A program made the translations under genes and the position numbers. DNA of 48,870 nt from a virus. Under the pieces are notes generated by a model. It was not told the DNA's origin and did not search any database. It worked only from the letters and a program-made list of their open reading frames with translations. This document shows, one piece after another, positions 59 to 34,239 of this stretch; the first letter of the stretch is position 1; each line of letters starts with the position of its first letter. The DNA lies in IMG/VR virus record IMGVR_UViG_3300036761_001677, positions 1-48,870 of that record; one strand, given 5' to 3'.

Positions 59-265
59 TTATGGTGCCTTCTTCCAACCGCTTATTATGGTAAGAGCTCC
101 CTGCTCATCCACTCCCTTAAGGTTCATCACCTGTTGTACCATCTGCGCATCAATAAGTTTGCTCTGTGCCCGTTGTAGTTCAGGGTCGAAGGTGGTCATT
201 AGAATTTCCATTGCACTAGCGATTCTTTCAAGAACAACCACCAGATCATCCATTGTTGCTGCCAT
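59..265 (-). CDS. Small helical protein of unknown function (68 aa)
   Basis: I do not recognise this protein. The start is the ATG at 265-263, preceded by GGAGG 4 nt upstream; an upstream in-frame ATG at 316 lacks such a site and lies deep inside the radical SAM gene. The product looks mostly alpha-helical, with a hydrophobic heptad-like stretch (VVVLERIASAMEILM) and no cysteine. It overlaps the end of the radical SAM gene by 20 nt, so it is probably translationally coupled to it. A role as partner or accessory of the Cys-rich/maturase pair is possible but unproven. Confidence 0.75.
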   Translation of the reverse strand: MAATMDDLVVVLERIASAMEILMTTFDPELQRAQSKLIDAQMVQQVMNLKGVDEQGALTIISGWKKAP

Positions 266-1394
266 ATTGCCTCCAGTACTCTTCTGTCCACTTTGCTTGA
301 ACCTTATGAACACCACATATATTCATAGGTCTATAAAACTCTCCCCTTTCAGAATATGCACCACCTATACACCATGCACATCCCCTCTCCCATTTGCACT
401 CAAGGCACTCTTTCGAGGATATCTTTGAGCGGGTTTGGCCTCTAACTATGCAGAACCTATCCTTGTGTGTAAATCCGTTCCAAACGTCCCCAACGTAGAA
501 GTCCAATTCACGAGTGGTCATTGTATGAGGAAGAAATCTGAAGCACGGATAGATCTTCCCGTTGATCCCAAGCGCTGGCATTGCTCCTGCCCCACACCAT
601 CCTCTATCGAGGTCTCCTATACCGCACTGGAAACTACTCTCAAGCATTCCCCAGTACAGATCATTCCTATGATCTAGTACGTATCCAACGCACTTCTCCA
701 TCTGCCTATCGAACTCCATAAGGTCATCTTCAGTCTCACCCATTGGCTCGAAGATGAAGTTCTGATTGATGTAATTTATTCCGAGGTCTTCATGTAGAAA
801 CTTTAAGGATCTAAATAGGAATGGTATTGAGCTTCTATTCAATGTGGACTTTGTGGTAGGAGCATTTCCGAATGCCTTACAGTAGTTCACATACCAGTCC
901 CATTCTCTCAGTATAGTACTCATAGAGTTACTTCTGTTCAGATTGTGTATCTCTGGACAACCATCCACACTAATACCAATTGATAGGTTCTTACTGTAAT
1001 CAAGTAGAAAGTCTCGTACCTTCTTGTCCCCAAACAAGGTTCCATTGGTAGATATGGAAGCTCTCCATCGAGTTGCCCAGTGATGCCCCATAGCCATAGA
1101 CGCAAATGCCCAGTACTCGAGGATAGAACGACAGAGATCAGGCCGCATGAGTGCATCACCACCAATAAAGTCAAGGCATAGTCCTTTCTCTATTAGCCAT
1201 GCGTCATTAGTTCCTAATACGGCTATAGGATCGGGATCACTGAGCATAACATCTATGAACCGCTTTGCATAATCTAATGGAAGGTCCCTTGGGGTCTTAT
1301 TGAGTTCATAGCAGTATGAACAACGAAGATTACAATCCTCCGTTACGTTAAATGTGATCTCCATACCATCATATTGATCCCTGGGTTTAATCAT
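246..1394 (-). CDS. Radical SAM/SPASM enzyme, peptide-maturase type
   Basis: Residues 21-28 carry the radical SAM signature C-x3-C-x2-C (CNLRCSYC), which binds the 4Fe-4S cluster that cleaves S-adenosylmethionine. GGD at 78-80 fits the SAM-binding GGE-type motif. The C-terminus has a SPASM-type cysteine set that binds auxiliary Fe-S clusters: C267, G279-x4-C284, then C330-x2-C333-x5-C339-x2-C342 and C360. The length (382 aa) is normal for SPASM maturases, which install thioether or other radical crosslinks in ribosomal peptides. Its ATG overlaps the stop of the 71-cysteine protein by one base (TGATG), so the two are translationally coupled; that protein is the obvious substrate candidate, by inference. 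An anaerobic-SMase-like role is an alternative. No peptidase or transporter lies alongside. Confidence 0.93.
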   Translation of the reverse strand: MIKPRDQYDGMEITFNVTEDCNLRCSYCYELNKTPRDLPLDYAKRFIDVMLSDPDPIAVLGTNDAWLIEKGLCLDFIGGDALMRPDLCRSILEYWAFASMAMGHHWATRWRASISTNGTLFGDKKVRDFLLDYSKNLSIGISVDGCPEIHNLNRSNSMSTILREWDWYVNYCKAFGNAPTTKSTLNRSSIPFLFRSLKFLHEDLGINYINQNFIFEPMGETEDDLMEFDRQMEKCVGYVLDHRNDLYWGMLESSFQCGIGDLDRGWCGAGAMPALGINGKIYPCFRFLPHTMTTRELDFYVGDVWNGFTHKDRFCIVRGQTRSKISSKECLECKWERGCAWCIGGAYSERGEFYRPMNICGVHKVQAKWTEEYWRQYGSNNG

Positions 1395-2641
1395 CAGTAG
1401 GACCCTGCATCAGCACCGTACCGCTGCGAATTGACACATCCACTAAAGCACGATTGATTGCACGAATTATAGCAATTTGATATGCAGCCAGTACTACAAT
1501 TATTCTCACAGCCTAAAGTACAGTCGTTATTTGTACATCCCCCAATACAGATATTTGAACACGATCCAGTACAGTTACTACTTGAACATGCTCCAGTACA
1601 GGAATTGGAACAAGCGGGTACTGTACATCCAGATCCACAGTACCCTGAGCAAACGTCCTTACAGCTCAGACGACAGTTAGAACCGCACCAGGAACTACAT
1701 ACAGTGATACACATACCTGAGCTGCAGCCGGCTCCACAACCTATACCACTACATGCACCCAAACAAATAGTGCTGCAACCACCCCCACATGTAGCACTGG
1801 CACAACCGCTAACGCACGAGACACTACAAGAAGTGCACATATTATTACAGGTAGCTCCACAAGTGCCACCGCCGCAAGCACCACCACCACAGTATAGATC
1901 ACATCCTGTATCGCACCAGTTGGCGCACCCAGAAGTATCGCATCCTCCAGAGCATATGAATGAACAAATAGCACAGAACGCATCACAGTTTCCCATACAC
2001 CCAGTACCAGAACATCCCCGTGCAGTACAGTACGCTGAACACCTTGGGGTGGAGCATGTCCCACCACATGATCTGCATTGTGTATAGCATGTGGCAGAAC
2101 AGTACTGATTGGCGCAGCCACCAGTACATGAACCTCCTGAACAAGTTCCTCCACAGCTATTAGAGCAGGTGTTTGAACAGGTAGCGATACAGGCGCTGGT
2201 ACAGATAGTAATGCAAGCACCAGTGCATAAGTTAGAACAGGCTGATGTTGAACAGCTGCTCTTACAGTTCCCTGTACATCCAGAACCGCATGAGCTATAA
2301 CATCCAAAGCACCTTGCTTTGTTCGCTGAATCGTCAGCTACCTGACGTGCTTCTTCAACATGTGTTGCGCGAACCTTGGTTATTCGAGCAGTTATGGTAT
2401 CAGCAAATGTAAAGTTAGAACCACCATAGTTCACCAATCCCTGTGTAGCAGTTCTGAGATCGTCAATGTGTTGTTTCCTGATTCGCTTTGTTCTTGCTGC
2501 TGGAGTATCAGTCCACGAAGCAGCTCCAAGTACTCGAGCTGTCCTCTGTAGTCCAATGTTCGTGAACGTCTCGGTCCAGTCTACTACCCGTACCTTTTTT
2601 CTGAGGAGAGGTTTTTGTGTGTACGAGTACTCAAAGCTCAT
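1394..2641 (-). CDS. Cys-repeat protein with fibre-type N-terminus, candidate maturase substrate
   Basis: This 415-aa protein has two parts. Residues 1-110 have no cysteine and contain two copies of a short motif of the type (K/R)IR-x2-H-(I/V)-x2-(L/A)R, near residues 52-63 and 88-99; this motif occurs, from memory, in surface and tail-fibre proteins. Residues 111-402 hold 71 cysteines (24%): 51 of the 70 spacings are C-x3-C, 15 are C-x4-C and 4 are C-x2-C. The intervening residues are mostly Gly, Ser, Thr, Asn and Ala. A 13-residue Cys-free tail follows. It lies at the end of the tail-fibre cluster and is coupled to the radical SAM gene by TGATG, and its start overlaps the upstream gene by ATGA. 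I infer a virion fibre or adhesin whose cysteines are modified; metal binding or a disulfide-rich stalk are alternatives. Confidence 0.88.
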   Translation of the reverse strand: MSFEYSYTQKPLLRKKVRVVDWTETFTNIGLQRTARVLGAASWTDTPAARTKRIRKQHIDDLRTATQGLVNYGGSNFTFADTITARITKVRATHVEEARQVADDSANKARCFGCYSSCGSGCTGNCKSSCSTSACSNLCTGACITICTSACIATCSNTCSNSCGGTCSGGSCTGGCANQYCSATCYTQCRSCGGTCSTPRCSAYCTARGCSGTGCMGNCDAFCAICSFICSGGCDTSGCANWCDTGCDLYCGGGACGGGTCGATCNNMCTSCSVSCVSGCASATCGGGCSTICLGACSGIGCGAGCSSGMCITVCSSWCGSNCRLSCKDVCSGYCGSGCTVPACSNSCTGACSSSNCTGSCSNICIGGCTNNDCTLGCENNCSTGCISNCYNSCNQSCFSGCVNSQRYGADAGSY

Positions 2642-2943
2642 TTTTCTTCTTTGCAGTCCTTAACGAATAGCAGTTCATTGTTCCCAAAGTCTATGTGAAC
2701 ATGCTTTCCTTGCATCGAGTGCTCTGCAACGATAACATTCCACCAGTCCTGTTCAAGGAATAGAGCATCTGCTTTGGCCTCGAGGGCTGCTTTCACGAAG
2801 ACCTTGGCTTTGTCCTCTGGACAACCATCGGGAATGTTCCGAGGATCTGCAGCCTGTGATGCACAGGATAATTGATTCTGGATTAGTCTCAGGCTGCTCA
2901 TCTCTTCCTCAGTAAGAAAAATACCAGTTCTTTCTGTTTCCAT
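2638..2943 (-). CDS. Unknown small protein (101 aa)
   Basis: The family is not recognised. It starts at an ATG with AGGAGG 5 nt upstream and ends in an ATGA overlap with the Cys-rich gene, so it belongs to the same translational unit. The first half is helical and acidic; three cysteines (26, 41, 97) show no motif. The C-terminal third (HVHIDFGNNELLFVKDCKEEK) looks like beta strands. A chaperone or assembly role for the neighbouring fibre genes is possible, from position alone. Confidence 0.8.
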   Translation of the reverse strand: METERTGIFLTEEEMSSLRLIQNQLSCASQAADPRNIPDGCPEDKAKVFVKAALEAKADALFLEQDWWNVIVAEHSMQGKHVHIDFGNNELLFVKDCKEEK

Positions 2944-2952
2944 TTGTTCCTC

Positions 2953-3225
2953 CTATGGAGCATAAACCGCATAGTGATATTGCTGTCCTTGATATCTTTC
3001 AATGTAGCCAAGGATCAGGTGCATTTCTATCAGCTCTCGTACCCTAATCTCAAGATTTGGGAGTTGTACGGAGCCGAGTGGATGATCAAGAATCTTCGCC
3101 TCTTTGTGCGTTGCGAGATCAGTGGATGTGGACTCAGTAACCTCAGAAGGTTTAGGTACAATGAGATCGGTCGCCTTTGGGGGTTTCGTAGGTGCAGGAA
3201 ATACGTCACGGGGTTGATCACTCAT
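2953..3225 (-). CDS. Unknown small protein (90 aa)
   Basis: The first 45 residues are rich in Pro, Thr, Ser and Lys and look disordered. The second half is a compact helical segment (NLEIRVRELIEMHLILGYIERYQ). The ATG overlaps the stop of the upstream tail-fibre-type gene (4 nt). No family is recognised; the location suggests a tail-associated or assembly protein. Confidence 0.72.
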   Translation of the reverse strand: MSDQPRDVFPAPTKPPKATDLIVPKPSEVTESTSTDLATHKEAKILDHPLGSVQLPNLEIRVRELIEMHLILGYIERYQGQQYHYAVYAP

Positions 3226-4055
3226 GCCATTTTCCTCGAAACGAGCTTAATATGCTTAGTAACTGCCGTGGTGTTCTTTAGGCCTAATCTTCCGTTCCAA
3301 TCCGAGATCCCTACTATAGAAGCAGTTATATAAGGAATAGTCTTGAGATAGTTCCCAGAACTAGATCCTGCAGCAGATGGCATGAAGCAGTCCAAACCAA
3401 AGTCTATCATAAGATAGGTACTTCCAGACATATCTTGATCTACAATAGTGGCCAATGTGCTATCCAATTTTGCTGATTTCAGTTCCTCATCGACAGATGG
3501 TACTGGGAGAGATACGATCGAATTATTATCATGTAGACTTCCAGTTGTAGGATCATTTCCGATATGTACAACTTTTGGCATCACATGATAGTCCTGAGTA
3601 TAATGTGCAGAGGCTGTATCAAGGTTCTCTACTCCGCCATCCAGAATATCAACGTTCACAAACGTCGAGTACTTCGGAGCTATTCCTTCTCGGCCAGCAA
3701 GTAGAAGATACTGGGTATGATCATCATCCCCAAGACCTATGAGGCCACTATGATCTATCCCGTTCACTGGCCCAATCATAACCGAGGACGAGTCCCAGTA
3801 GAGTCTCTTTGAGGTACTATCGAACTGTATTGCACCCAAAATACCCGTACTAATTGGGATCCCACTTAGTATGCTCACGATCGAGCATTCTCCAACTCGG
3901 TGCTTCATCACAGGGGTCACTGTCGGGTCCCAGGTATGCTCTATTAGGAACATCTGTTTGAAGAGTACCTTTAGTGTCAAAATAGCATCGCAGGAGACTG
4001 CTCCAAAGTCTCCTGACTCCGGGTCGTTTAGAAAGTCACTGTTCCAGACTGCCAT
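3222..4055 (-). CDS. Tail-fibre-type structural protein 1
   Basis: A 277-aa protein containing the segment GLGDDDHTQYLLLAGREG near residues 106-123, a short motif repeated in many phage tail-fibre and baseplate-type proteins. It is the third of three adjacent genes that each carry a version of this motif (also 4065-4847 and 4844-5623). The rest is rich in beta-type sequence. Inference: trimeric receptor-binding or fibre protein. No enzymatic motif is visible. Confidence 0.75.
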   Translation of the reverse strand: MAVWNSDFLNDPESGDFGAVSCDAILTLKVLFKQMFLIEHTWDPTVTPVMKHRVGECSIVSILSGIPISTGILGAIQFDSTSKRLYWDSSSVMIGPVNGIDHSGLIGLGDDDHTQYLLLAGREGIAPKYSTFVNVDILDGGVENLDTASAHYTQDYHVMPKVVHIGNDPTTGSLHDNNSIVSLPVPSVDEELKSAKLDSTLATIVDQDMSGSTYLMIDFGLDCFMPSAAGSSSGNYLKTIPYITASIVGISDWNGRLGLKNTTAVTKHIKLVSRKMA

Positions 4056-4064
4056 GTTCTCTTC

Positions 4065-4847
4065 CTAGCTCTTTATCTTGTATCCCCAAACTTGGGGATC
4101 TGTAGAAGAATATAGCCCACAATTTCCAGACCCAGCATCCGAGAAGTATATTGGGTACCCCGTTGGAAAGCCTGTAGAAAGTGCCCTCGGCCAGAACAGG
4201 TAGTTATCTGTAGGTACCTTTACCATATAAGTAGGCGAACCCACATAGGAGTATATTCCTGCCTCGCTCGAAAAGTTTCCTCTACTAATAGAACCTGCTG
4301 ATAGATGACGGGCGACTATCGCGGCATTTGGAACAGGATGTGCAATAAGCCATGATAGATCCCTATGAGTCTCAGGAAGCGCCGAGCCAGCATTTGAATT
4401 AAAATCTGTTACCTCAAGTGCATCAGCCGCTACTAAATGGATCTCAGAAGCTATAGGTCTTGTATTGTCCTTCAAGTAGTACTGAGTATGATCTGCATCG
4501 ACATCGAGATTTGTTAGTTCATTATGACTATTCGTAGCGAGAACCATAAAGTTCCCATCGCTATCTATAACGTACAGTCTGTTTTCTTCTAAATCAAAGT
4601 GTAGGCTCCCTGTATTCTTCGGAGTGAAAGCAAGGCGATCTGTAGTGAGGGTATGCACCTTACACCATCCAACTTTCGAGATCGGATGGGATCCATTCGC
4701 GCTTCCCCCATAGAATAGATGCTCATCAAAGACTCCATTGTTACAACTTGCCCTCTCACGAATGAGCAACTTCATATTCTGTAGTACTATATGGAGGGTA
4801 TTCGCTTGGACTGTACCCCCATCAGGGTAATCATCTTGCCAGATCAT
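4065..4847 (-). CDS. Tail-fibre-type structural protein 2
   Basis: A 260-aa protein with the tail-fibre motif in the form LDVDADHTQYYLKDNTRPI near residues 118-136. It overlaps the upstream gene 4844-5623 by 4 nt and is followed 9 nt downstream by 3222-4055. The three genes look like diverged paralogues of one fibre or adapter protein, each similar in size. The C-terminal region is beta-rich and differs from its neighbours, as expected for host-contact domains. Confidence 0.75.
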   Translation of the reverse strand: MIWQDDYPDGGTVQANTLHIVLQNMKLLIRERASCNNGVFDEHLFYGGSANGSHPISKVGWCKVHTLTTDRLAFTPKNTGSLHFDLEENRLYVIDSDGNFMVLATNSHNELTNLDVDADHTQYYLKDNTRPIASEIHLVAADALEVTDFNSNAGSALPETHRDLSWLIAHPVPNAAIVARHLSAGSISRGNFSSEAGIYSYVGSPTYMVKVPTDNYLFWPRALSTGFPTGYPIYFSDAGSGNCGLYSSTDPQVWGYKIKS

Positions 4848-5623
4848 ACTGAGAGGTACCTCTGCCGTACCCTATACGTGTACGTTAAGATACTATTATT
4901 ATATAGTACTAATCCTCCTGGGTACAAAAGAAGTGTAACGTCCTCTGTATTAGATCCGTTCTGTAATAGTACTTGTGGTACAAATCCATAATAGCTCAAT
5001 GGGATATACTTGCTCACAAAGGCACCAATAGTATCATTGTACTCTACGGTACTAATCTTCAGTTTCGTACCAGATATAATTCCGTCTTTTACAACGGACG
5101 CATTCCCAAGAGCTGGATGGGATTCTGCCGAATGCCCCTTTGTTAAGAACTGACCGTATTCCTTCGTTCCAGCAACACCAGTCGAAGGCATTAGAAGCTG
5201 CCCACCCATATTGAGGTCCCCAGTTGGGACCATCCCGCCATTCAGTTTAAGGTACTGAGGATGGGAATCATCGAGAAGATCAGCAAGAGCTCCATGGTCG
5301 AGTGTGCACAGAACAATCCATGCGCTGCTATGGTAGCACATGAGCTTATATAGATGGGGAGATGAACCATCATCGTAGAGGTATAATGCACCTTCCTGTG
5401 GATTAACTACGCCGGCCGGGTTGTTCCCTCTGTCGGCAAGTCCAACATGCCCCATCCAGTGCTTCCCCTGGTCAGCCTCTGAAAAGGCCATTCCCCACTG
5501 ATGTTGGACTTCCATACGGTCTTGAATACCGACTTTGGCTTTTTGGATCTCCCAACGGATCTGGTCCCGAGGAACGAGATTACTTGGAGTTCCTTCATAG
5601 GAGCTATCCCAGATGAAGGTCAT
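4844..5623 (-). CDS. Tail-fibre-type structural protein 3
   Basis: A 259-aa protein. The N-terminal part (WEIQKAKVGIQDRMEVQHQWG) is helical, and residues around 109-136 carry LLDDSHPQYLKLNGG followed by a GDLNMGGQ segment, the classic phage tail-fibre motif. The ATG overlaps the end of the adaptor gene by 4 nt. As the first fibre-type gene after the adaptor, it may be the one that anchors fibres to the tail; this is inference from order. Confidence 0.78.
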   Translation of the reverse strand: MTFIWDSSYEGTPSNLVPRDQIRWEIQKAKVGIQDRMEVQHQWGMAFSEADQGKHWMGHVGLADRGNNPAGVVNPQEGALYLYDDGSSPHLYKLMCYHSSAWIVLCTLDHGALADLLDDSHPQYLKLNGGMVPTGDLNMGGQLLMPSTGVAGTKEYGQFLTKGHSAESHPALGNASVVKDGIISGTKLKISTVEYNDTIGAFVSKYIPLSYYGFVPQVLLQNGSNTEDVTLLLYPGGLVLYNNSILTYTYRVRQRYLSV

Positions 5624-6510
5624 TTCATTCTCACCTTCATCCGGCGCTTCTGATACTGTTGCTCGACTTCGTAGTCGTCCCGGCGGTTAATTGCCATATC
5701 GACGAACGATGCTTTCTTCTCCGTGGCTCGAGCTGGTTCCATCAGGTTCTCGAAGCCTCTATAGATTGCCCCGGCTATGATGCACTCATGCCATATCTCA
5801 GGGAGTTCAGAGGAGAGTGCAGGGAATGCCGTAAGTAGCCGAGTAGGGTACCTTCGATAGTACATCCGGAGCCATACTGACTCTTCAGGTGCACTATCAA
5901 AAATAAGGGTGTTGCCCCTCCGTGCGAACTTTGAAGGAGTACCGATTGACTTCGGGCTGATTCCTGCTATCTCGTTCCAAGCAACGTGATTCAGGGATGA
6001 ACCCTCATCAGCAGTCTCGAGCCGCTCGACTGTGTGAAGTGCCTGATTTATATCAAGTCCTGTAACTACAGGTAGCCAGACTTTCTTCGACCGGATAGTG
6101 TACTTTGTACCAGAAGGCCAGACCTGTGAGAAGTTCGGGTAGACATATGCCCTTGCAGTAACCTGATCATAGTCAACGATTATCGCTTCATCAGTCCCGA
6201 TCGTGACTACTGCATCGTTGTACGCATCAGCAAAGGCCATTGAGGGAGAATCGAGAATCATGTACAATAGAGTCGTATCGTAGCCGCTCGTCTGATCAAT
6301 ATAGTAGGGAGCAAGCTCAAAGTTCTTATCCCCTTCCAAAATATGGAAGCGCTTTGGGGGGAACATCCTCTGTCTGTAGTAACCACAGAGTTCGTATTGT
6401 GCCCAGTTCAACCATCCCACAATACGGCCATAGCCCGGGTTAGGGGCTGCGAAGTCTGTCCGGTTTCCGAGAGCTGCTTGGACCTCAGCTATCATTTCAG
6501 CAGTGGTCAT
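5620..6510 (-). CDS. Putative head-tail adaptor (neck) protein
   Basis: A 296-aa protein. The N-terminus (MTTAEMIAEVQAALGNRTDF, then IVGWLNWAQYELCGYY) has the pattern of podovirus adaptor or tail-tubular-A-like proteins: a helical start with a conserved 'I-x2-WLN-A-Q' segment. The middle is beta-rich. It sits between capsid-related genes and the fibres and close in order to structural genes, as expected of a connector that docks on the portal ring. It could instead be another neck component. ATGA overlaps link it to the fibre gene downstream. Confidence 0.6.
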   Translation of the reverse strand: MTTAEMIAEVQAALGNRTDFAAPNPGYGRIVGWLNWAQYELCGYYRQRMFPPKRFHILEGDKNFELAPYYIDQTSGYDTTLLYMILDSPSMAFADAYNDAVVTIGTDEAIIVDYDQVTARAYVYPNFSQVWPSGTKYTIRSKKVWLPVVTGLDINQALHTVERLETADEGSSLNHVAWNEIAGISPKSIGTPSKFARRGNTLIFDSAPEESVWLRMYYRRYPTRLLTAFPALSSELPEIWHECIIAGAIYRGFENLMEPARATEKKASFVDMAINRRDDYEVEQQYQKRRMKVRMK

Positions 6511-10635: not shown

Positions 10636-10898
10636 TCTTTTGTCCTCCTAAGTGCGTTTTGTATCTCTGCCGACATAATGCCGGGCAATTCCATAACCAT
10701 CTTGATGGTCTTTCTCTGATTACTGAACGCCATAGCCTTGGACTGGTCCCCCAGCTCCAGCGCCTGCAGGCACTGGGATTGGTAGTCCTGCTCCAGGCGC
10801 TTCAGGCGTTGGTGTACCAGGTCCCATCCCGGGTCCGCCTTGAGGGAGTCCAGGTGCATTGCCTGCTCCCGTAGGGCCTGCTCCTTCTGTCTGTCCAT
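10632..10898 (-). CDS. Small helical protein nested in the portal 3' end (88 aa)
   Basis: An 88-residue, strongly helical protein (PGWDLVHQRLKRLEQDYQSQ) beginning at an ATG with GGAGGAGG about 8 nt upstream. The first 179 nt overlap the end of the portal gene in another frame, and its stop overlaps the scaffold start by ATGA. The good ribosome site and natural composition argue that it is real. Function is unknown; position suggests a head-assembly partner. Confidence 0.8.
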   Translation of the reverse strand: MDRQKEQALREQAMHLDSLKADPGWDLVHQRLKRLEQDYQSQCLQALELGDQSKAMAFSNQRKTIKMVMELPGIMSAEIQNALRRTKE

Positions 10899-12819
10899 TG
10901 ACTTGTCCTCCTCCGGTCTCCATTGAGGCCTGTATCATTAGTATATCTTCGATGTTCGGTGCGAATGTGGCTGGATCACGGAACTCAAACGCTTCGAGAA
11001 CACGCTTCCACATTTCCGTTCCAGCAATCGCAGCCTGAGTTCCAAGTGCTTTAATCTGTGGAGGTGCCTGCTGGCTCGTCGCAATGCTTACGGCTTGGAA
11101 CATAGCTTGGTAGAATGTCTGCATGAGCTGCATTAGAGTGAGCATTCCCTGCTTCTTCGCGTCTTTGTTCTCAACTTCACTGAGAGCGGGAACGTCAATA
11201 GCTATATTGGCTCTGGTATATTCTACTGGCATTGTCATGTACTTCTCAACCCACTTCGCTTCATCGGGCGAGAATATCTCGTACATGATGTTGTCTTGGC
11301 CAGCTGGAACGAACTGCTGGTAAAGCATGATGATTTGGTGTGCTATATTCTTCAGCGACTTTCTAATGTCATTGATCGTCATTAGGAACCGTTTATTTCC
11401 TTCACGGATCAGTGCAAGAGTCGAAGTCGCGGTTGCTCGAGAACCAATTGCTTGGCTCTCTCTGCCCGAAGTGTAGTCGTTGACTCCTGTACGTTTCTCT
11501 CCAATCGTGAAGGAGTTCAGTTCCTCACGGAGCAAGGTGTCATGGGTTGCACCCATTAGGAGAGGCTTGATATCGTCCTGAGAATCTACAGGAACAAAGG
11601 CACCTGGGTATATCTCGACCTCATCGAGGTGGCTCGTTCTTAGCACCGTAAAGGTAGGAGCATTGGAGATCGTCGCATTGTCGAGACGGAGGTTGTGCTC
11701 TGTCGATATTTCCGTTTGAATGTCCTGAAGCATCTGGCAGATCCCAAGTCCCCATAGAGACCCCTCACGAGGGCAGAAACGAATGAAATGGAATGGGCGC
11801 TCCTGGTGCCGATATGGATTGTAGACCGCACGAAGGATGGTCTTGGTCGGGTAGTGGTAATCTATGAGGACCTCAGAGAGTTCACCACCTTGGATCGTTA
11901 TCGGTTTTCCAGTTGAATCGGTGCCAGATTCTACCGTTCCATTGTCATCAATAACGTACGAGACCCAGCACTCCCATGTTTCGAACTCTCCATCACGGTT
12001 TGCCCGGTTGATACCCATGGCGGAGTCCTTCTGATCCTCCATCCTGGTTCCTTCAGAGCGAGGACTAGCAAGTACCTTATCAACGTTTATGAATATGCCA
12101 GAACCTTCCTTTTCCTTGAGGGTCTTTTTGGTATAGACGCACCTCTGGAAAAGTCCTTCACAGTTCTGAATATCGAGGGTACTATAGGCGTCCGGAGTAA
12201 CATAGAAGTCACTGAGAGGCACAACGTACATCTTTGGTCCGTTGTACCGTTCAACGAGTTCTATCTTCACGGAGCCATCAGGCATCTTGTACTTTACTTT
12301 GCGGACTATCTTTTCCCAAGGCACTTTTGCAACACCAGTCCCGAACTTCAGCATACCGAGGAACCAGCGTTGGCAGGCCTCATACATGTCCATAACATCA
12401 TGTCCAACCCAGTTCAGCCATTGTTCCATGGGTTCAACAAGATCGACCCACTTTGCAGACTTCGGCATGCCCTGCCATAGGTTCTTCCCGATGAAGATCG
12501 AACCCATGAGTCTCGATAGGACTGCCTCAACATGGATCGCGATGATGGGAACTATGAGGTTTGAAGCACCTTCCCAAGGCCACTGCTTTGTAGCTGTCTT
12601 GGGGATGGCCTCATATTGCTGTTCCCATTCTACGATCTTATCATCCATGCCCTGTTTGGCATCGACTGCACGACGGATGGCCTCTTGTAGCCAGTCACCG
12701 ATTTCGTCCAGTTTAGCCTGTGGGACCTCAATCCAGGCCTCCATTGACTGGCCAATCATTGTATTATCTGTTGGGGAGGCCATGGGAGCTGGTTTCGTTG
12801 CAGTACTTACATCGCTCAT
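10720..12819 (-). CDS. Portal protein
   Basis: A 699-aa protein of typical podovirus portal size. Residues 50-200 (GKNLWQGMPKSAKWVDLVEPMEQ) and the segment NLRLDNATISNAPTF fit portal proteins, which form the dodecameric ring through which DNA enters and leaves the head. From about residue 636 to 699 the sequence becomes a Gly/Pro-rich tail (for example PGLPQGGPGMGPGTPTP). The tail is exactly the part that overlaps the next gene in another frame. It lies downstream of the terminase unit and upstream of scaffold. Confidence 0.92.
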   Translation of the reverse strand: MSDVSTATKPAPMASPTDNTMIGQSMEAWIEVPQAKLDEIGDWLQEAIRRAVDAKQGMDDKIVEWEQQYEAIPKTATKQWPWEGASNLIVPIIAIHVEAVLSRLMGSIFIGKNLWQGMPKSAKWVDLVEPMEQWLNWVGHDVMDMYEACQRWFLGMLKFGTGVAKVPWEKIVRKVKYKMPDGSVKIELVERYNGPKMYVVPLSDFYVTPDAYSTLDIQNCEGLFQRCVYTKKTLKEKEGSGIFINVDKVLASPRSEGTRMEDQKDSAMGINRANRDGEFETWECWVSYVIDDNGTVESGTDSTGKPITIQGGELSEVLIDYHYPTKTILRAVYNPYRHQERPFHFIRFCPREGSLWGLGICQMLQDIQTEISTEHNLRLDNATISNAPTFTVLRTSHLDEVEIYPGAFVPVDSQDDIKPLLMGATHDTLLREELNSFTIGEKRTGVNDYTSGRESQAIGSRATATSTLALIREGNKRFLMTINDIRKSLKNIAHQIIMLYQQFVPAGQDNIMYEIFSPDEAKWVEKYMTMPVEYTRANIAIDVPALSEVENKDAKKQGMLTLMQLMQTFYQAMFQAVSIATSQQAPPQIKALGTQAAIAGTEMWKRVLEAFEFRDPATFAPNIEDILMIQASMETGGGQVNGQTEGAGPTGAGNAPGLPQGGPGMGPGTPTPEAPGAGLPIPVPAGAGAGGPVQGYGVQ

Positions 12820-29127: not shown

Positions 29128-29408
29128 TCCCCGCTCCTATCTATATACCCAATTATGTGTCGAACTCGGATCCATGTCTTGGGGATCTTATGAACACCAC
29201 CCCACTGTTCTGTACGGTTTGCAGACTTCTCTGGTTCATGACGCTCAGCGAGTATGATCATCTTCTGTGTTTCTTTTATTAGGAACCCAACTGTCTGTGT
29301 GTACCAGTCCTCTTTGATCCATCCCTCGATCTCTTCGTTGCTAAACCAGCTCGTATTCCCATGTGCGTCTATCCATTCAATGTATATCACAGGGTACTGT
29401 TTATCCAT
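29109..29408 (-). CDS. Unknown protein (99 aa)
   Basis: The start is the ATG at 29408 with GGGGGAAG upstream, overlapping the polymerase stop by 8 nt. The N-terminus (YPVIYIEWIDAHGNTSWF) and the remainder look like a small alpha/beta protein. No family recognised. Confidence 0.75.
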   Translation of the reverse strand: MDKQYPVIYIEWIDAHGNTSWFSNEEIEGWIKEDWYTQTVGFLIKETQKMIILAERHEPEKSANRTEQWGGVHKIPKTWIRVRHIIGYIDRSGEWKRMR

Positions 29409-31746
29409 TGAGCTTCCCCATTTCCCCCATGTTGGGGCCGGACTTCTGTTCGACAGGCCACTGGAATACCATTCCGTTTGGTGCCGTAACAGGAGACTCC
29501 ATGACCTCCTTGACAATCTTGGCGACTGTCTCTGCTCGAGAAGTAGGAGTCTCGATATAGAACGAGTCATGCAGTTGTAGTATTATTTTGTCCTTATCCC
29601 TATCAAGTTCCTTGTCGAGCTGTGCAAAATGGTAGTGCATTACATCGCTCACTACACTTTGGATTGGAAAGTTCACTGCTTCCCTTAAGTTCGCTTGTGT
29701 TGGCTTGTTTGTGAACCACCTAATCCTGCCGAATGGGTTTGTGATCTTCTGCTTTTCCCTCATTTCGATCTCTATGCCTGTCTTATAAGCAAATAGTGCA
29801 GGGTGCTTCGCCCACAGGTTTACAAGTGCTTGTCTAATGTTGGCTCTTTGCATCAACTCCAAAGGGCATACTCTCTCAATCTCCTGTCCTTCAGATCCAT
29901 AAACGATCCCATATATAAAGTTCTTGATGAATGTTCTGTGCTTCTCTATGTACTCCCCATAGACATCGAGCATGTTCAAAGCATGAATGTCGTCGCCTCG
30001 CTCAAATGCCCCGAGCCACGGTATATCGTGAGCGATAGTAGCAAATATCCTAAGCTCAACTTGCGAATGATCACTCTCCACGATGGTACAACCAGGCTCG
30101 GCTGCGTACAGCGTTCGTATAAAACCAGTCTTGTCCCGTGCTGGATTCGGGAGATTCTGAAGATTAGGATCACTGCTATTGAATCTGCCCGTAACCGTTC
30201 CGTGTAAAGTGAAAGTGCTATGGACTCTCCCATCAAGACCGATCGGGGGGTCAATGTAAGTTGAACGAATCTTCTCTGCTTCCCGATAGTCCAGTAGGAG
30301 TGAAGGGACACGACTTTCAGGATGCCGAATTGTGAGCTTTTTAAGTACATCCTCATTTGTTGATAGTGCCTCCCCACTTCCAGTCTTGACACCCGAACGA
30401 AGTTTGAGCGTCTTGAAGAGCATCTCCGACACTTGCTTTGGAGAGTTCAGGTTAATCCCGGGTGATAAGCCAAGAGTCTCAATTTCGTCCTTCAATTCTG
30501 CAAGGTGAGTTGAGAGCTTTCCAAGTACCTCGTCACGACGTGCAGCATCGAAGCGTATGCCGTTTACGGCCATTCTTGCCGTGGGAATGACTGCCCCATT
30601 CAGAACATCGAGGAGCCAGCCCAGTCCTAAAGTCTTGGCTTCTGCTTCAAGCGCAGGTTTGACAAGGTGCAGAACAATACCGTCCCTTGCATTGTACCTT
30701 CTGAAATCAAAGTCGGAGCCGGTACCCTTGCTCAACTTCCATGCTGGATAATCAGAGAACGTTGAAACGATGAAAGCGAGATCATGGGCGGCAGGTTGAT
30801 AGATCAAATAATGCGCAAGGATAATATCGAACACTGGCCCAACGACCTCGAAGCCATGGTTTATTAGAACCGAAATATCGAATATCCCGTACTGGAATAT
30901 CTTGAGAACATTGGAGTTCTCGAGGATCCCTCCAATAGCCTGTATGATTCTTAGTTCCTCTTCCTCGGTCTTCCACGCCCAGTTCCCTGCCTCAGTTATC
31001 ATAGGCACAACAAAGGCTTCTGATGCAGAATGCGCAAAACAGATGCACTTTAGGGGTGTCTCTGTTGCCTTGGCATGGTACGTCTCGATGTCAATCGCGA
31101 GTTCCAATCTCTTCCCGTTCGCTGTTTCTCGGTCAACTCGCATCCGGAACTCTTCAACCTCAAGGACAGTTGGGAAGGTGAAGAACTTTTCAGCAGGTTG
31201 AGGGACCTGCATCCCCGTCGCGTAGCGGCGGATCTTCTTCCAGTCTCGTACTGAGGTATCAAACTCGACCCAATCTCGAGCTACATAACCTGGGTGCCAT
31301 GTTGGAACAGCAAGCCCGTAACTCGTACTCCAGATAGCCCCCCTTGCTGCACTAATGGGTGCATCAATTCCGAGAGCATGGAGGGAAGTGTTACCAACAG
31401 GTACAAGGATCTTCTTATTTCGCAGCCCCTGCAATTCGGAAAGAAGTCTTGGTGTACACAGGGATATTGCTCGCTGAGCTGCCGCAGTCTTAATGATATT
31501 TCCTGGAGGTCTACACTGAAGGACATTGAGGAATGAACAGTCCTCCCTTGATAGTCCTGCTCTCTTCTGAATCCTGTCTTGAAGTTGTCCTGTTGTTCCG
31601 ACGAACGGCTTTCCATACTTCTCCTCATGTTCACCTGGAGCTTCACCAATGACTACGATCGGCGCTCCTGGGCGTATCTCCGATGGAACAATCCGTTTAC
31701 CTGCGAACGGGCATTCTGCGCAGTTGCTCAATGTCCACCCCCTCAT
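29401..31746 (-). CDS. UDG - DNA polymerase A fusion
   Basis: A 781-aa protein joining two enzymes. Residues 1-170 form a family-4-type uracil-DNA glycosylase: C9-x2-C12, GEAPG (34-38), PFVG (47-50), C78 and C97 (cluster ligands) and HPG at 151-153. The rest is a family A polymerase: 3'-5' exonuclease start (LAIDIETYHA), motif A ESDHSQVELR, motif B with NFIYGIVYG, and motif C LHDS at about 725-728, where E of the usual HDE is Ser. It copies the phage genome; the UDG part may remove or guard against uracil. Confidence 0.9.
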   Translation of the reverse strand: MRGWTLSNCAECPFAGKRIVPSEIRPGAPIVVIGEAPGEHEEKYGKPFVGTTGQLQDRIQKRAGLSREDCSFLNVLQCRPPGNIIKTAAAQRAISLCTPRLLSELQGLRNKKILVPVGNTSLHALGIDAPISAARGAIWSTSYGLAVPTWHPGYVARDWVEFDTSVRDWKKIRRYATGMQVPQPAEKFFTFPTVLEVEEFRMRVDRETANGKRLELAIDIETYHAKATETPLKCICFAHSASEAFVVPMITEAGNWAWKTEEEELRIIQAIGGILENSNVLKIFQYGIFDISVLINHGFEVVGPVFDIILAHYLIYQPAAHDLAFIVSTFSDYPAWKLSKGTGSDFDFRRYNARDGIVLHLVKPALEAEAKTLGLGWLLDVLNGAVIPTARMAVNGIRFDAARRDEVLGKLSTHLAELKDEIETLGLSPGINLNSPKQVSEMLFKTLKLRSGVKTGSGEALSTNEDVLKKLTIRHPESRVPSLLLDYREAEKIRSTYIDPPIGLDGRVHSTFTLHGTVTGRFNSSDPNLQNLPNPARDKTGFIRTLYAAEPGCTIVESDHSQVELRIFATIAHDIPWLGAFERGDDIHALNMLDVYGEYIEKHRTFIKNFIYGIVYGSEGQEIERVCPLELMQRANIRQALVNLWAKHPALFAYKTGIEIEMREKQKITNPFGRIRWFTNKPTQANLREAVNFPIQSVVSDVMHYHFAQLDKELDRDKDKIILQLHDSFYIETPTSRAETVAKIVKEVMESPVTAPNGMVFQWPVEQKSGPNMGEMGKLNG

Positions 31747-33045: not shown

Positions 33046-33367
33046 CTTCAATCTCCTTCTGGAGCCTCTCCAGTTCCATATCGAGGTATTTCACTGCCCA
33101 CCGTGGTGGGTTCCAGTTTCTCACCTTTCCAGTGAGCATTGACTTCAGAGCTCGTCCTTCGGCGATCTCTCTTGCTCGAAGTCGGTTCCATTGATCTCGG
33201 GGGCTACATAGGCTGACACCAACGTAGACCCTTCCATCGGAGGGTCCGATGTGGGCAACAATACATCCAATGGGAGTTCCAGTTGGCCTTCGTCCTGGAA
33301 CCACTGGAACCCCTTTGTCCAGTCCTGTTCTGATATATCGGATGATAGGAAAATTGATCCTCCCCAT
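32876..33367 (-). CDS. Phage protein overlapping both neighbours (163 aa)
   Basis: The start is the ATG at 33367 with AGGAG 8 nt upstream, 223 nt inside the methyltransferase gene. Residues 20-112 fit a recurring phage pattern of P-x3-P-G-x(5)-P-I-G-x(2)-V-A, then VYVGVSLCSPRDQWNR, IAEGRAL and helices. Residues 108-163 overlap the i-spanin-like gene and are low-complexity. Only about 100 nt of the gene are not shared with another frame. Confidence 0.6.
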   Translation of the reverse strand: MGRINFPIIRYIRTGLDKGVPVVPGRRPTGTPIGCIVAHIGPSDGRVYVGVSLCSPRDQWNRLRAREIAEGRALKSMLTGKVRNWNPPRWAVKYLDMELERLQKEIEDAVHERLGMDHSNDPGDSRSGVDLSEEVPSEETPMADFHPNQNIVRNGSRSPKGRS

Positions 33368-34239
33368 TTACCCAGCTCCTTCTGCAGTTCATCATTTGCC
33401 AGTTTACAGTACTCCTCACTTAGCTCTGTACCAAGTGAGTGACGTGCTAAGCGGTTAGCCGCTATTGCAGTCCTACCTGAACCCATGAATGGATCAAATA
33501 CCAGGCCACTCTCCGGACAGCAAGCAATGATGGGCCTTGCAATAAGTCCCTGAGGATAAGGTGCCTTGTGTGGAACTTTGTCCTTGTTTGTAGGAACAAT
33601 CCATACGTCTCCACAGTCCACTCCTCCTTCGAGGATATCGTCCGTTTTAGAACTCATGTCCCCGATCATACCGCGCATGCGGGAGGTCTCGGTCTGCTTG
33701 CTCTTGTTGAAGTTGTACTGCATTCGCTGCACAGTGTTCAGACGCGATGGTATGTTCGTCGCGTCACGATTAAAGAAGTACTCAGCCTGCAGAACAAACC
33801 AATAAAAGAACTCATACTTTCGGGTGAACCTATTCACCACTGACTCGGGTTGTGGATCTGGCTTATACCAGATCACTTTGTTCTTCAGTTTGAATCCTGC
33901 TGCGATCATCCCGAGGCAGAACTTTTCGGGAACCATCAATGGCCCACCTCTGTAGGTATCGTCGATGTTCACCCATACTGAGCCTGTCGGCTTCATCTTT
34001 GGCTTTATAGCCATGAACACATCCACGAGAGCCTGGACGAACTCCTCAACGGTTTGCTCTCGTCCAATCTCCCGTGAATCTGGTGTTCCCCCCAGACCAG
34101 ATGTGTACTTTCGTAGCTTGAAGTAGGGGGGCGACGTAACGCACAGGTCAATGAAATGGTCCGGGAACTGTTTGACCAGTTCCCGGACGTCACCCTGGTA
34201 CGTTTTGTCTACGGCAAAGCCGTTAGACGACGTACTCAA
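33145..34239 (-). CDS. DNA methyltransferase, N4-cytosine/N6-adenine class
   Basis: A 364-aa beta-class DNA methyltransferase. The catalytic motif IV is TSPPY (35-39) and the SAM-binding motif I is DPFMGSGRT (249-257), in the order of the beta class. TSPPY is common in N4C enzymes. It likely modifies phage DNA against host restriction. The domain ends near residue 290; the last 74 residues overlap the 163-aa gene. Confidence 0.9.
   Translation of the reverse strand: MSTSSNGFAVDKTYQGDVRELVKQFPDHFIDLCVTSPPYFKLRKYTSGLGGTPDSREIGREQTVEEFVQALVDVFMAIKPKMKPTGSVWVNIDDTYRGGPLMVPEKFCLGMIAAGFKLKNKVIWYKPDPQPESVVNRFTRKYEFFYWFVLQAEYFFNRDATNIPSRLNTVQRMQYNFNKSKQTETSRMRGMIGDMSSKTDDILEGGVDCGDVWIVPTNKDKVPHKAPYPQGLIARPIIACCPESGLVFDPFMGSGRTAIAANRLARHSLGTELSEEYCKLANDELQKELGKWGGSIFLSSDISEQDWTKGFQWFQDEGQLELPLDVLLPTSDPPMEGSTLVSAYVAPEINGTDFEQERSPKDEL

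Follow-up and report, generated by a model that had tools for sequence, protein, structure and literature searches.

A candidate three-gene phage module for radical SAM/SPASM modification of a probably tail-associated cysteine-repeat protein

Introduction

The closest described relative of the locus reported here is the CXXX-repeat peptide modification system of Bacteroidota, which is known in silico and is covered by the NCBIfam models TIGR04114, TIGR04115, TIGR04116 and TIGR04117. We found no paper using these system names or accessions in the open-licence literature, and no reported product of the CXXX-repeat enzyme family. Among related enzymes, PapB-type maturases link cysteines to Asp or Glu acceptors in substrates with a Cys-to-Asp spacing. 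CteB-type enzymes form Cys-Thr gamma-thioethers (PMC10352776).

Here we analyze a 48,870-base IMG/VR record (the window, i.e. the whole stretch of DNA under study), identified as a tailed phage by its SU10-type portal and adaptor proteins, major head protein and terminase. Judged from its genes, the locus described below represents the phage counterpart of the CXXX-repeat modification system. In open-licence papers we found no account of such a Cys-repeat/radical SAM pair in a phage.

Results

The module occupies the minus strand of the window and consists of three genes that overlap or abut. The radical SAM/SPASM maturase P0001 (382 aa, 246..1394) starts within the stop codon of the Cys-repeat fibre-like protein P0002 (415 aa, 1394..2641), giving a TGATG overlap, and the start of P0002 in turn overlaps the stop of a gene for a 101-aa accessory protein (2638..2943; ATGA). 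Upstream on the same strand lie three fibre-like structural proteins of 277, 260 and 259 aa (3222..4055, 4065..4847 and 4844..5623) displaying DDDHTQYL, DADHTQYYLKD (in translation) and DDSHPQYL, respectively; the first and third of these we take to be motifs familiar from phage fibres. Further upstream are the SU10-type adaptor (5620..6510, minus strand; Pfam PF24175, E 1.8e-14) and portal (10720..12819, minus strand; PF23899, E 4e-26). The original prediction of a TGATG-coupled pair in a tail-fibre region is thus borne out by the gene order. Elsewhere on the minus strand the window encodes a family A DNA polymerase with an N-terminal domain of the uracil-DNA-glycosylase superfamily (29401-31746; Pfam PF03167, PF00476) and a DNA methyltransferase (33145-34239; PHROG 67, E 2e-48).

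All 71 cysteines of P0002 fall within the 292 residues from 111 to 402, the first and last positions of this core being cysteines, behind 110 Cys-free N-terminal residues and ahead of a 13-aa tail (VNSQRYGADAGSY). The predicted predominance of C-x3-C also holds, as 51 of the 70 gaps are x3, with 15 x4 and four x2, compared with a mean of 7.5 and a maximum of 20 x3 gaps when the same 292 residues were shuffled in 2000 trials. The core is not of low complexity at the DNA level, since spacer residues are diverse and both cysteine codons are used (47 TGT, 24 TGC). P0002 therefore displays the tandem C-x3 repeats, in a protein linked to a maturase, by which CXXX-repeat substrates are recognized. 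It carries no Tat-like signal and gave no fibre-family match in Pfam, NCBIfam or PHROGs; tblastn against phages returned no matches either, possibly on account of the BLAST low-complexity filter. Structure prediction of the Cys domain had been proposed as a check, and AlphaFold was run on P0002 with six homologues, but it yielded no usable model (pLDDT 35), an outcome that speaks neither for nor against modification. The core, poor in Lys and Arg, gives few tryptic peptides (six in its 292 residues).

P0001 is an intact enzyme gene, as had been claimed, with the radical SAM motif C21-x3-C25-x2-C28 and SPASM cysteines at 267, 284, 330, 333, 339, 342 and 360. All ten cluster cysteines are invariant among 68 relatives. 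The top NCBIfam model for P0001 is the CXXX-repeat maturase TIGR04115 (216 bits, under the 350-bit cut-off), followed by PapB NF047865 (103 bits; cut-off 340), and the SCIFF model TIGR03974 scores 49 bits (cut-off 425). The TIGR04115 cut-off is exceeded by another phage enzyme (L137, 496 bits) and narrowly missed by a third (L075, 341 bits). The proposed link to CXXX-repeat systems is upheld by these scores, and on profile evidence P0001 is related to the CXXX maturases but divergent, and is not a member by curated score. Its best PDB match is 5wgg (E 8e-49), presumably the thioether-forming SCIFF maturase CteB, and it matches PHROG 1802, a family of phage radical SAM proteins, at E 1e-35. Searching viral contigs for exact patterns with only P0001 as the query gave no matches. 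Inteins typically occupy conserved sites of genes that their host cannot lose, and intein-like insertions are present in the catalytic Cys motif of four phage radical SAM genes (L131, L189, L193, L194) and in the SPASM cysteine region of a fifth (L195). Together with the invariant cluster cysteines, these insertions suggest that maturase function is retained in phages.

Iterated profiles started from the accessory protein first reach Margulisbacteria proteins encoded beside the same enzyme and, from there, Bacteroidota proteins. One accessory of the Bacteroidota type (L122) matches TIGR04116, named "CXXX repeat peptide modification system protein". The window accessory has no direct match to this model, and is joined to TIGR04116-type proteins as a remote homologue by the iterated profiles (about E 1e-21). 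A second accessory family of similar size, found at 36 loci and mostly between the Cys gene and the enzyme, is homologous to it (hhalign 97.2%, E 2.8e-11). The AlphaFold model of the window accessory is good (pLDDT 89); its fold is common to three phage proteins of unassigned function (BFVD, TM-scores 0.64-0.84), and the PDB fold search produced no match below E 0.001 (best 0.35) and nothing that points to a known peptide-recognition domain. The profile links to TIGR04116-type proteins and to the second family indicate a module of substrate, accessory and maturase. The coupling of substrate and enzyme in the original prediction stands, whereas its two-gene scope was too narrow and should include 2638-2943.

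To assess recurrence, enzyme loci were gathered with a profile of five enzymes, giving 79 viral and 80 genome loci; two of the five seeds came from a Cys-pattern scan and the search for the remaining loci relied solely on enzyme motifs. Linkage was defined as a C-x3-C gene on the same strand within 3 kb of the enzyme. At a threshold of 200 bits, chosen after the data were seen, 75 of 84 enzymes had a linked Cys-repeat gene (53 of 58 distinct viral and 22 of 26 genomic enzymes), versus six of 66 weaker SPASM matches (Fisher p 7e-25). Five of the six weak linked cases were viral, and the contrast is therefore, if anything, understated. Conversely, viral contigs were scanned for the Cys pattern at the DNA level and low-complexity frames, which made up most of the C-x3-C matches, were discarded. 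All six contigs with long, non-low-complexity Cys repeats (L040, L058, L075, L293, L307 and L387) encoded the enzyme. Homologues of the Cys-rich protein lacking a radical SAM neighbour would have spoken against the original prediction, and there were none among these six genuine cases. The pair also recurs in other phages, and its conserved linkage in many independent phages argues that the coupling of substrate and enzyme is very probably both genuine and widespread. In one phage carrying the module, three further radical-SAM-like ORFs lie directly upstream (L136, 1015-4351).

In a tree of 68 enzymes, inferred quickly and with an arbitrary root, the window enzyme falls in a clade made up of five phage rows and four from Margulisbacteria and is nearest to the latter (58% identity, support 80), and the Bacteroidota clade is nested within phage diversity. 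The four Margulisbacteria loci (L212-L215), whose Cys-repeat proteins share homologous N- and C-termini with P0002, are chromosomal and lie among housekeeping genes with no phage neighbours. They have two accessory genes, with HTH-like genes lying upstream in the opposite orientation, and the Termititenax aidoneus assembly holds two copies of the module. The setting among housekeeping genes suggests that the module also works, or was taken over, outside phages. In Bacteroidota, substrates carry RREFFKKAAK-type (Tat-like) N-terminal signals and TatA-like genes follow downstream (L218, L222 and others).

The module is also present in cultivated phages. Each of seven Salmonella, Erwinia and Cronobacter jumbo phages examined (SPN3US, CR5, Caitlin, Phobos, EarlPhillipIV, STsAS and pEa_SNUABM_43) carries a pair of neighbouring Cys-repeat ORFs, flanked on one side by an annotated virion structural protein and on the other by two radical SAM genes, mostly at about 3.0-4.0 kb of the extracted loci (L124, L500-L505; 6.2-7.1 kb on the minus strand in L500). 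Several of these ORFs are unannotated or lie under antisense calls, e.g. CAITLIN_176 and PHOBOS_167/168. Their N-termini contain "KATNNADLFGG" or "NANNLGGMSPG"-type stretches, which we regard as familiar from tail fibres. In the main text of the SPN3US virion mass spectrometry study, the module's neighbours gp168-gp170 are baseplate/tail-fibre candidates, and gp163 and gp165-gp167 are not mentioned (PMC5694885), although Cys cores poor in Lys and Arg yield few tryptic peptides; the SPN3US proteomics papers examined gave no evidence on the relevant gene products.

Across viral loci, upstream neighbours belong to tail-fibre, tail and collagen-like minor-tail PHROGs and downstream neighbours to endolysin PHROGs. 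Among the N-termini of phage Cys-repeat proteins, inspection shows sequence resembling collagen in L205, an SGNH hydrolase in L139 and a galactose-binding domain in L075, and the phage proteins have no Tat-like signal, unlike those of Bacteroidota. Two marks of a fibre protein, position among fibre genes and fibre-like N-termini in relatives, are thus present. Phage cores have 76% x3 and 22% x2 spacing, and their spacers are composed of Gly (29%), Ser (22%), Thr (17%), Asp (4%), Glu (1.4%) and Pro (0.2%). A start motif, C-x3-C-x-G-[LMV]-C, occurs in 31 of 70 phage cores, many of them from gut phages, and in some Bacteroidota peptides, and is perhaps an enzyme entry site; it was not seen in P0002.

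Discussion

On balance, our results favor a three-gene phage module in which a dedicated enzyme would introduce thioether-type modifications into a Cys-repeat stalk associated with the tail. According to this hypothesis the Cys-free N-terminal part docks P0002 to the tail, and the maturase, made in late infection, would process the Cys core, rich in Ser, Thr and Gly, ahead of assembly while the accessory protein helps to present the long substrate. Numerous thioether links from Cys to carbon, resembling those of ranthipeptides or sactipeptides, could then stiffen an otherwise disordered chain into a crosslinked stalk or tip. More broadly, we consider the case evenly balanced that a maturase-crosslinked Cys-repeat chain supplies a fibre or tip segment in the virions of many tailed phages, cultivated jumbo phages among them, the Bacteroidota systems being a branch of a mainly viral family.

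The role as virion stalk or adhesin should be interpreted with some caution. Gene position and N-terminal domains support this part of the original prediction and make a virion location of the Cys-repeat protein quite likely, but the relatives nearest to the window pair reside in Margulisbacteria chromosomes and the role is consequently not universal. The same chromosomal loci, the Tat-like signals and TatA-like genes of Bacteroidota, and the silence of the SPN3US proteomics main text on gp163 and gp165-gp167 (PMC5694885) would fit a Cys protein that is matured by the enzyme as a non-virion, RiPP-like product acting on the host cell or on competitors, as the secreted CXXX peptides of Bacteroidota perhaps do. 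We find this unlikely, insofar as the phage proteins have long fibre-like N-terminal domains in place of such signals and the module is placed between tail-fibre and lysis genes.

With respect to the chemistry, thioethers from Cys to Thr, Ser, Gly or Ala carbons are suggested by analogy with CteB, and on that analogy the maturase probably makes Cys-carbon thioethers. A PapB-like mechanism with Asp acceptors is improbable given the scarcity of Asp and Glu in the cores (about 4% and 1.4%). This very scarcity of the acceptors of PapB-type enzymes, and the other products of SPASM enzymes to which the names of NCBIfam enzymes attest, could be accommodated if the Cys core were a fibre segment held by disulfides or metal ions, on which the enzyme performs epimerization, oxidation or carbon-carbon linkage at Ser, Thr, Gly or Asn. 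However, the enzyme associates specifically with Cys repeats and the nearest characterized enzymes by profile (5wgg, PapB and SCIFF maturases) form thioethers; both the disulfide- or metal-held core and this alternative chemistry are in our view doubtful. That a low-complexity frame merely adjoins an unrelated radical SAM gene, as many low-complexity C-x3-C DNA matches in viral contigs might suggest, is scarcely credible given the high DNA complexity of true members, the linkage across divergent phages and the homologous N- and C-termini in relatives, and is ruled out by the recurrence of the pair.

If the thioether-modified stalk is real, radical chemistry would provide phages with covalently stiffened receptor-binding parts, of which we know of no example in a virion, and RiPP-type modification would be put to use in building a viral structural component. 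Orphan CXXX-repeat enzymes would gain a plausible role and could be studied in model phages that are easy to grow, and several gene calls that are wrong or absent in sequenced phages would be explained. Moreover, each pair of Cys-repeat gene and enzyme makes a ready test system for SPASM processing of dozens of sites per chain.

In conclusion, the locus is best placed by comparison with four known systems. CteB, from the SCIFF group, is the nearest solved structure to P0001 (5wgg) and a SPASM enzyme with three iron-sulfur clusters, but it acts on a short six-Cys peptide whereas the window substrate has 71 cysteines. The freyrasin maturase PapB differs in the Cys-to-Asp spacing of its substrate, Asp being rare in phage cores. 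PHROG 1802 is taken here to hold the SPN3US-like jumbo-phage enzymes; the loci of these presumed members also carry Cys-repeat genes, partly unannotated, but the enzymes are separated from the window enzyme by a very long branch and each locus has two radical SAM genes. The Bacteroidota CXXX system likewise combines a tandem C-x3 substrate with a related SPASM maturase and an accessory protein, and its TIGR04115 cut-off is reached by the L122 and L137 enzymes, whereas the window enzyme and accessory fall below or outside its models. Phage substrates, in turn, are longer than those of Bacteroidota, have fibre-like N-termini in place of a Tat-like signal, and are encoded in late operons.
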